A program made the translations under genes and the position numbers. Positions 49,715 to 52,606 of a stretch of DNA of 55,943 nucleotides are shown here, piece after piece; the stretch's first letter is position 1, and each line of letters starts with the position of its first letter. Source of the stretch: Gammaproteobacteria bacterium (lineage in GTDB: Bacteria > Pseudomonadota > Gammaproteobacteria > GRL18); contig JAPHSW010000072.1 of NCBI GenBank assembly GCA_026196615.1, forward strand, positions 1 to 55,943, written 5' to 3'. A model generated the notes under the pieces. It did not search any database, had not been told where the DNA came from, and saw nothing but the letters and a program-made list of their open reading frames with translations.

Positions 49715-50005
49715 AGTTGCCTAATATTCGCCTGTTATTTAATCTATGTGTGTGAGTGTCTTCTGAAGGTTGACACACTATCTCTATATATTCTAGTACG
49801 AACTTTAATTATAGCCAAAAAATTATTGTTTTTTCTCAATAAAGTTATAAAAATGAGATATATTTCATGAAAAATAGGAATTTTTAACTATAATTTAATT
49901 TTTTAATGATTAAATGGTAGAGTAATTACTTAATTTATTTAAAAATGATGGTATTGTCGATTAAATATAATATTTGTGAAAATATTGGGGGCTCTCCAGA
50001 AGCCT
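49715..50005. other. Gap between pilB and the sugar-gene remnant; no pilin gene
   Basis: 291 AT-rich bases separate divergent pilB and the decayed oxidoreductase. No prepilin-like frame (short basic leader, Gly, then Phe-Thr-Leu-Ile-Glu) is present on either strand. Both the pilBCD promoter and the polysaccharide promoter should lie here, but I find no convincing boxes. Confidence 0.5.
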
Positions 50006-51041
50006 ATGAAAAGAAAAAAAGTGTGCCATTATTGATTGTGGAAGAATTACACTCAAACATTTTGAAGCCATTGACAAACATAATGATTTTCTTCAATTAA
50101 CTGCGGTTTGTGATACTGATAGGGATTTGGCAACATGTATTGCAGCTGAAAAAAATTGTATTGCTTATCACTCGTTAACTATTTTATTGGAACAAACCGA
50201 TGCAGAATGTATTATTTTCTGTACTCCAAGTGGTCTTCATGCTTGTCAGACGATCTTATGCGCTAAGGCAGGAAAACATGTAGTAACTGAAAAAACAATG
50301 GACACATGCTGGAAAGATGGCTTAAAAATGGTCAAAGCTTGTGATGATGCCGGAGTTGAACTGTTTGTGGTTAAGCAAAATCGTCGCAATACAACTTTAC
50401 AACTTCTAAAAAATGCCATTGATAAGAAGCGTTTTGGTACAATCTATATGGTTCAGGTTAATGTTTTCTGGACGCGACCCCAAGAATATTATGATCAGGC
50501 AAAATGGAGAGGAACTTGGGAGTTTGATGGTGATGTACTAATGAATCAGGCAAGCCACTATATTGATTTTCTTGATTGGTTAATCGGTCCTGTTAAAAGT
50601 GTGCAAGCAATGATTGCTACACTAGCGCGTGATATTGAAGTTGAAGGCACCGCTGTGATGAATGTTAGATGGCGCTCAGGTGTATTAGGTTCAGTGAGTG
50701 TTATGATGCTGATCTACCTAAAAAATCTGGAAGGTTCAATCACCATTATTGATGGAAAAGGCAGAGTTAAAGTAGGCGGTGTTGCCGTTAATGAAATTGA
50801 ATAGTGGAACTTTGAAGAACCTGAGCCTGATGATCAAAAAATACAAGCAGCAAGTTATGAAACCACTTCAGTTTATGGCTTTGGTCATCCGCTTTACTAT
50901 AAAAATGTGATTGATACACTCAATGGTGTAACCAAAGCAGAGACAGACGGGCGGGAAGGTTTGAGATCGCTTGAGTTATTATTTGCCTCATACCTTTCTG
51001 CAAGGGATGGTAAAAAAATATCATTATCTTTAGAGTATTGA
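50006..51041 (+). pseudogene. Decayed UDP-N-acetylglucosaminuronate 3-dehydrogenase (WlbA/WbpB type)
   Basis: Remnant of a Gfo/Idh/MocA NAD-dependent oxidoreductase that, in the WlbA/WbpB pathway, oxidises C3 of the UDP-GlcNAc uronate on the way to a diacetamido sugar acid. ATG 50006 (MKRK) reads into a stop after nine codons. Removing one A from the run at 50014-50020 joins it to the long frame (KKCAIIDCGRITLKHFEAI). That frame continues to a TAG at 50802-50804; after it the same frame resumes as WNFEEPEPDDQKIQ and runs 78 more residues (ETTSVYGFGHPLYY, ETDGREGLRSLELL) to TGA 51041. The usual EKP motif reads EKT. The NQASHY motif remains. Reading both lesions as real makes it non-functional. 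Confidence 0.85.
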
Positions 51042-51050
51042 TGGTACCAA

Positions 51051-51490
51051 ATGAATTATTCCTCTCATCCAACAGCAATTATTGATAATGGAGTTCAAAT
51101 TGGTCAAGAAACTCACATTTGGCATTGGATTCATGTGTGTTCTGGTGCAGAAGTTGGTAATGCCTGTTATTTGGGACAAAATGTTTTTATAGGTAATAAA
51201 GTAAAAATACAAAACAATGTTTATGATAATGTGTCTCTGGATGATGGTGTGTTTTGTGGCCCCAGCATGGTTTTTACCAATATCTATAATCCACGCGCTT
51301 CTATTGAAAGAAAATCTGAGTATAGAAATACTTTAGTGAAAAAAGGTGTCACTCTCGGGGCTAATTGCACAATTGTTTGTGGCATTACTATTGGGAAGTT
51401 TGCATTTATTGAAGCTGGAGTTGTAGTTAATAAAGGTGTGTTGAATTATGCCCTTATGGTAGGGGGCAGCTAAACAAATGATCGTGAGTG
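51051..51490 (+). pseudogene. Decayed left-handed beta-helix N-acetyltransferase (WlbB/WbpD type)
   Basis: Remnant of the hexapeptide-repeat acetyltransferase that acetylates the 3-amino group in the same sugar pathway. The frame runs 140 residues (51051-51473) against about 190 in the family. It shows [47 protein letters not shown] and [15 protein letters not shown]. As I recall the family, NNVSVYDNV is expected where this has NNVYDNV, a two-codon loss between GTT repeats. After ALMVGG the frame stops at once, while the next frame reads AAKQM, matching the expected PAKQI: a frameshift. Changes such as IEAG for IGAG and KGVL for KDVP also look degenerate. Confidence 0.75.
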
Positions 51491-51526
51491 TATCTATTAT
51501 TTATTTAAGGTCATGGAATTAAAAGT

Positions 51527-52606
51527 ATGCAATTTATTGATTTACAAACTCAGCAAGAAAAGATCAGAGATAAAATTGAGCAGCGAATAAAAACGGTTCT
51601 GGATCATGGTAAATATATTATGGGACCAGAGGTTTCTGAATTAGAAGAAGTATTGGCTAATTTTGTAGGAGTCAAACATTGCATTGGAGTCTCAAGTGGT
51701 ACAGATGCACTACTTATTGCAATGATGGCTTTGGAAATTGGACCTGGTGATGAAGTAATTACATCGCCATTTACATTTATTGCTACTGGTGAAATGATTG
51801 CTTTGTTAGGCGCTAGGCCTGTATTTGTTGATATTGATCCTAAAACTTACAATATTGACCCCCAAAAAATTGAACAAGCCATCACAAATAAAACAAAAGC
51901 AATTATGCCTGTTAGTCTTTATGGACAATGTGCAGACATTGATGAAATAAATTTAATCGCAGAAAACTATCAAATACCTGTGATTGAAGATGGTGCCCAA
52001 AGTCTCGGTGCTACATACAAGGGTAAGCAATCTTGTTCACTAACCACTATCGGCTGTACAAGTTTTTTTCCTTTCAAACCACTCGGTGGTTATGGTGATA
52101 GTGGGGCTTGCTTCACAAATGATGAGCATTTGGCTAAACTCATGCGTGAAATTAGAGTGCATGGCCAGGACAAGCGTTATCATCATTCTAGAATTGGAAT
52201 AAATGGTCGAATGGATACACTGCAAGCTGCTATAGTGCTCGCTAAATTTGAACTCTTTTCTGATGAAGTTAAAAAAAGAAATATAATAGGTGAGCGCTAT
52301 ACAGAGCTTATTTCTGAAAACTCTCCATCCATTACCACACCATATATTAAAGATGTTAATACTAGTGTTTATGCGCAATATACTCTTCAGGTGAAAAATA
52401 GAAATCAACTAATAGAACAATTAAAAAAAGTTTCAATTCCAACCGCAGTACATTACCCTATACCATTAAACCAACAACCAGCTTTAGAGACACAAGAATT
52501 TGATTTATCAATATCTGAAAAAGTGTTAAACCAGGTAATGAGTTTACCCATGCATCCTTATTTAACTGAAGATGAACAACAGAAAATAATTATGGCTATG
52601 GCTTGA
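51527..52606 (+). CDS. DegT/DnrJ/EryC1-family sugar aminotransferase (WlbC/WbpE type)
   Basis: PLP-dependent aminotransferase that would convert the 3-keto uronic sugar nucleotide to the 3-amino form. The 359-residue frame is open and full length, starting MQFIDLQTQQEKI. Family motifs are CIGVSSGTDALLIAMMAL, TSPFTFIATGEMIALLGA, PVSLYGQCADIDEIN, IEDGAQSLGATYKG, the PLP lysine in SFFPFKPLGGYGDSGA, and PMHPYL near the end. The residue before the lysine is Phe where I recall Ser, and GGYGDSG differs from the usual GCYGDGG. These differences may mark early decay, in line with the two broken genes ahead of it. If intact, it has lost its pathway here. Confidence 0.88.
   Translation: MQFIDLQTQQEKIRDKIEQRIKTVLDHGKYIMGPEVSELEEVLANFVGVKHCIGVSSGTDALLIAMMALEIGPGDEVITSPFTFIATGEMIALLGARPVFVDIDPKTYNIDPQKIEQAITNKTKAIMPVSLYGQCADIDEINLIAENYQIPVIEDGAQSLGATYKGKQSCSLTTIGCTSFFPFKPLGGYGDSGACFTNDEHLAKLMREIRVHGQDKRYHHSRIGINGRMDTLQAAIVLAKFELFSDEVKKRNIIGERYTELISENSPSITTPYIKDVNTSVYAQYTLQVKNRNQLIEQLKKVSIPTAVHYPIPLNQQPALETQEFDLSISEKVLNQVMSLPMHPYLTEDEQQKIIMAMA

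Follow-up and report, generated by a model that had tools for sequence, protein, structure and literature searches.

Decay of a native wlbA gene, probably made redundant by a wlb cluster of other descent, in a draft gammaproteobacterial genome

In Pseudomonas aeruginosa, UDP-2,3-diacetamido-uronic acids are made by the Wbp pathway (WbpA, WbpB, WbpE, WbpD, and WbpI) (PMC10622841), in which wbpB, wbpD, and wbpE are the counterparts of the genes referred to here as wlbA, wlbB, and wlbC. In Porphyromonas gingivalis HG66, a natural nonsense mutation in wbpB abolishes A-LPS (PMC4031482). We analyzed a stretch of 55,943 nucleotides (the window; contig JAPHSW010000072.1 of assembly GCA_026196615.1, a Gammaproteobacteria bacterium of GTDB lineage GRL18) from a draft genome of 288 contigs, in which a native wlbA-wlbB-wlbC cluster lies beside pilB (Table 1). 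As in HG66, the wbpB counterpart carries a natural nonsense mutation; unlike in HG66, the neighboring acetyltransferase gene is dead as well, and an intact second copy is present in the genome. Compared with the P. aeruginosa Wbp set, the aminotransferase gene is the only one still open in the window's cluster. The closest solved relatives of the wlbA product are 3q2i and 3q2k of the Gfo/Idh/MocA family, which are named dehydrogenase and oxidoreductase in the structure table and correspond to the WlbA proteins of Chromobacterium violaceum and Bordetella pertussis. An intact orthologue aligned with these proteins end to end (E = 1.3e-158), and the window remnant aligned over residues 4 to 263 (E = 1.5e-106); in contrast to 3q2i and 3q2k, the window copy does not yield a single chain on translation, and its NAD and EKP motifs are changed.

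The frame opened by the ATG of wlbA (50006-50008) ends, behind a run of seven A residues, at a TGA; the same stretch stays one frame in the orthologues of three same-genus genomes (G010, G013, and G014). The long homologous frame begins at 50010, directly 3′ of a TGA at 50007-50009, and continues up to an in-frame TAG. Its remnant covers the NAD-binding fold along with the greater part of the C-terminal domain and shares 76 to 79% identity with the intact same-genus orthologues, and the codons that follow the TAG (YGFGHPLYY, TDGREGLRSLELL) end at a TGA at 51039-51041. Because both flanks of the TAG independently matched Gfo/Idh/MocA domains (PF01408, PF22725, and PF02894 above cutoff before it, the end of PF02894 after it), the whole of 50006-51041 is one gene in pieces. 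Jointly, the two pieces span the WlbA family end to end, with a frameshift and a TAG interrupting what would be a single open frame of ∼344 codons. In an NCBIfam search, no model was reached at its cutoff by WlbA proteins. The window copy contains EKT and DTCWKDG, compared with EKP and ATRWQDG in the intact orthologues. EKP and NQASHYID presumably hold the catalytic Lys and His of WlbA; both residues are retained in the window copy, and the Pro of EKP is gone. An earlier note, made from the letters alone, had described a WlbA/WbpB-like dehydrogenase with its frame broken after the A run, a TAG interrupting the homology, 78 recognizable residues beyond it, EKT for EKP, and a Cys in place of an expected Arg; direct reading of the sequence, the Pfam matches on both sides of the TAG, and the alignments to the orthologues and to 3q2i and 3q2k bore out this description throughout. 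The sequence at 50006-51041 is confirmed as a pseudogene of the genus-native wlbA, which, judged by homology, would have encoded a WbpB-type UDP-GlcNAcA 3-dehydrogenase.

Table 1. Features of the native wlb locus in the window and loci with PIN-WlbC fusions
Feature	Position	Strand	Basis or detail
wlbA start and short dead frame	50006..50035	+	ATG 50006, A7 50014-50020, TGA 50033-50035; sequence read directly
wlbA remnant, 263 codons, without usable start	50013..50801	+	PF01408/PF22725/PF02894 above cutoff
In-frame TAG within wlbA	50802..50804	+	Read directly; the whole-genome search match also has one TAG inside
wlbA C-terminal remnant, 78 codons plus TGA	50805..51041	+	PF02894 profile positions 147-218, E = 2.9e-8
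wlbB (hexapeptide N-acetyltransferase), decayed	51051..51473	+	Protein and DNA alignments with G010, G013, G014, and C277
Eroded rest of wlbB 3′ end	51474..51526	+	Alignments
wlbC (DegT-family 3-aminotransferase), 359 aa, open	51527..52606	+	PF01041, E = 8e-119
PIN-WlbC locus L130 (own genome, contig C209)	14681-16213
PIN-WlbC locus L029	5542-7068
PIN-WlbC locus L030	11571-13154
PIN-WlbC locus L031	10535-12070
Other PIN-WlbC loci: L039, L044, L045, L049, L050, L061, L072, L098, L104, L106

The damage to wlbA was not limited to the frameshift and the stop codon. Across 82 homologues, some of the same genus and others found in public genomes, 100 columns were strictly invariant, and nine of these were changed in the window copy (next worst, 4; median, 0). 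The NAD-binding glycine motif GCGRI is altered by a G>D exchange at 50034, a position invariant in all 82 homologues, and further invariant residues are replaced at 50301 (A>D), 50532 (G>D), 50535 (A>V), 50568 (L>F), 50646 (D>G), 50751 (G>D), and 51027 (P>S). When the four same-genus copies were compared, the window copy showed 28 replacements of its own, whereas the orthologues had 5, 15, and 16. In a codon model purpose-written for this analysis, omega on the window branch was 0.108 versus 0.018 elsewhere with four taxa (likelihood ratio test [LRT], P = 0.0029) and 0.156 versus 0.017 with three taxa (LRT, P = 0.0004), all of these being rough figures from distant relatives with nearly saturated synonymous sites. 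Omega equal to 1 was not rejected for the window wlbA branch (P = 0.06 and 0.16). No significant rise of omega on the window branch was found by the same kind of model for pilB, pilC, pilD, zapD, argJ, and mutT-thiE, with pilD also somewhat high (0.10) but not significantly so (P = 0.24).

It is very unlikely that the frameshift and the TAG are artifacts of sequencing or assembly in a working gene. Although the assembly is a draft and the frameshift sits at a homopolymer run, 39 runs of seven or more A residues lie inside the 46 other open reading frames (ORFs) of the window, none of which is broken by them; the nine invariant-residue changes are scattered along wlbA, the relaxation of constraint is confined to this gene, and wlbB has separate indels. 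TAG is the stop codon of 8 of the 46 other ORFs, and since it is a usual stop and the A runs lie in open frames, homopolymer error and TAG readthrough are poor excuses for the lesions. Recoding, in which slippage at the A run and readthrough of the TAG would together yield a working enzyme, has an almost negligible chance of being correct: polymerase slippage can occur at such runs in A+T-rich genomes, but two separate rescues would be required, one of them at a normal stop, and neither would remedy the G>D exchange at the NAD motif, the loss of Pro from EKP, or the dead wlbB. Extremely unlikely, too, is a new role for the remnant, for instance as the 225-residue ORF from a TTG at 50127 to 50804. 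This ORF is open and keeps several stretches of the active site, KQNRRN and NQASHYID among them, but it lacks the beginning of the NAD-binding fold as well as the C terminus, and the relaxed constraint extends across the whole of wlbA. That the wlbA lesions represent decay and not a single sequencing slip, as the earlier note had argued, is well supported by the gene-wide departures from invariant residues, the raised omega, and the separate indels in wlbB. Eight of the invariant-residue departures and the decay of wlbB go beyond the damage described there.

The adjoining wlbB (51051-51473) is, by its sequence, also dead. It carries two in-frame deletions (18 bp near 51204 and 6 bp near 51218) and a 2-bp frameshift near 51466, which is followed by a TAA (51471-51473) and an eroded 3′ end. 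Lineage-specific replacements numbered 18 in the window copy, compared with 0, 4, and 5 in the orthologues. For wlbB, omega revealed no relaxation on the window branch, and the evidence for its decay consists of the indels and the replacement counts.

For wlbC, we found no departure at 85 near-invariant columns, and its own replacements were unremarkable (17 in the window versus 11, 22, and 19); only these counts were used, codon-model runs with a distant relative being saturated. The gene is open and constrained, so that decay has reached two of the three genes of the cluster. The sole odd residue was S183F beside the PLP lysine (52060-52090), where the other sequences have S (52), A (4), or T (3), and which could be a first sign of decay. 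Window wlbC is without the PIN domain that is fused to WlbC in G010, G013, G014, and the second copy in its own genome. Both the PIN domain and the small ORF are missing at this locus, although its closest same-genus relatives, G010 and G014, carry the PIN domain. Within the eroded remainder of wlbB directly upstream, no PIN domain, PIN remains, or antitoxin-like ORF was seen; the PIN domain may have disappeared along with the 3′ end of wlbB. A phage origin was rejected, no match for 50000-52600 being found among phage records. At the other end of the locus, the sequence separating pilB from wlbA (49800-49865; TATTCTAGTACGAACTTTAATTATAGCCAAAAAATTATTG...) shows strong conservation in G013 and G014 and is probably the pilB promoter region.

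Comparison with relatives revealed intact wlbA orthologues in three same-genus species. The native form is present in 4 of the 16 genomes of the genus, including that of the window; in G013 and G014 it lies beside pilB, as in the window, and in G010 it lies at another site. The window genome itself contains a second, intact wlbA on contig C277, directly behind a nucleotide-sugar 6-dehydrogenase-like (wbpA-like) gene. A wlbB starts at the terminus of C277 (query residues 4 to 132), and a wlbB 3′ end (residues 134 to 188) lies at the end of contig C209; behind it come a small ORF and then a PIN-DegT protein of 510 residues. From these complementary, nonoverlapping wlbB ends, we infer that C277 and C209 are adjacent. 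The genome also contains a candidate WecB/WbpI-type 2-epimerase. When 37 WlbA proteins were placed in a tree, the window copy grouped with G010, G013, and G014 (100/99), and the C277 copy grouped with two Thiotrichaceae metagenome-assembled genomes (MAGs) (95/89). In the aminotransferase tree, the C209 protein grouped with a Thiotrichaceae MAG and G013, apart from that of the window. Because of these placements, the second cluster can be assigned a different descent, and it was probably acquired by transfer. G013 combines a native wlbA and wlbB with an aminotransferase of C209-like descent (L031 versus L029; Table 1); therefore, cluster parts have evidently been exchanged between lineages.

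While decay is well supported, its cause is less certain. We consider it likely, with a probability of roughly 0.88, that the native wlb genes are decaying after the cluster of other descent had made them redundant, a cause that was absent from the earlier note. The second cluster, with its wbpA-like gene and wlbA on C277, a wlbB split between C277 and C209, and a PIN-wlbC on C209, would supply the same steps toward UDP-2,3-diacetamido sugars, including those of the 3-dehydrogenase and the acetyltransferase. Selection on the native copy would have been relaxed through this redundancy. Of the native wlbA-wlbB-wlbC set beside pilB, wlbA and wlbB have been lost by point changes and indels, with wlbC still open. 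We infer for this that the second cluster works, covers for the native one, and preceded the decay. Counting against this explanation, wlbC shows no decay, so that not all of the cluster is dead. Decay might instead have set in once the pathway product was no longer required, for instance after a switch of surface polysaccharide. The patchy distribution of wlbA in the genus would fit such a loss, but the intact second wlbA is kept in a polysaccharide locus with pathway neighbors and the product seems still to be made, which renders this explanation unlikely. Gene decay through redundancy is an ordinary process, of which this locus would be a further instance. It illustrates cleanly how native genes for a surface sugar decay while the same step is seemingly taken over by a cluster of different descent, at a stage when one of the three genes is still open. 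Annotations should not list the window locus as a functional source of WlbA or WlbB; the working copies are likely those on C277/C209.

More surprising than the wlbA pseudogene, and perhaps of greater importance, is the PIN-WlbC fusion. In 14 of 60 wlb loci, distributed over several phyla, the aminotransferase ORF opens with a region of ∼150 residues, which in most cases matches Pfam PIN_3, so that a VapC-like N-terminal PIN domain and a WlbC-type sugar aminotransferase form one continuous ORF. A search of one literature collection for PIN-DegT or PIN-WlbC fusions found no relevant paper. In L031 and L130, the N-terminal region had no Pfam PIN match but could be aligned with the other fusions. 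A small antitoxin-like ORF of 80 to 105 codons lies upstream in most of the fusions; one of these small ORFs matches the AF2212-like family above cutoff. Within the genus, all four intact clusters seen have the PIN fusion and the one decaying cluster is without it. The imported cluster might have been kept by an addiction device, consisting of the PIN toxin fused to the aminotransferase and the antitoxin-like gene, with the toxin-free native cluster left free to decay. However, the link between fusion and retention is weak, since most PIN-free wlb clusters outside the genus are intact, and we regard this scenario as quite improbable. In the predicted structure of one PIN-WlbC protein (mean pLDDT, 88.8), VapC-type PIN proteins were among the best structural matches, with TM-scores of about 0.55 to 0.6 and only one match below an E value of 0.001. 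In the aminotransferase tree, the fusion turns up at scattered places (9 changes), and in an alignment of ten PIN-WlbC sequences, D7, D13, E104, D105, and D124 were invariant.
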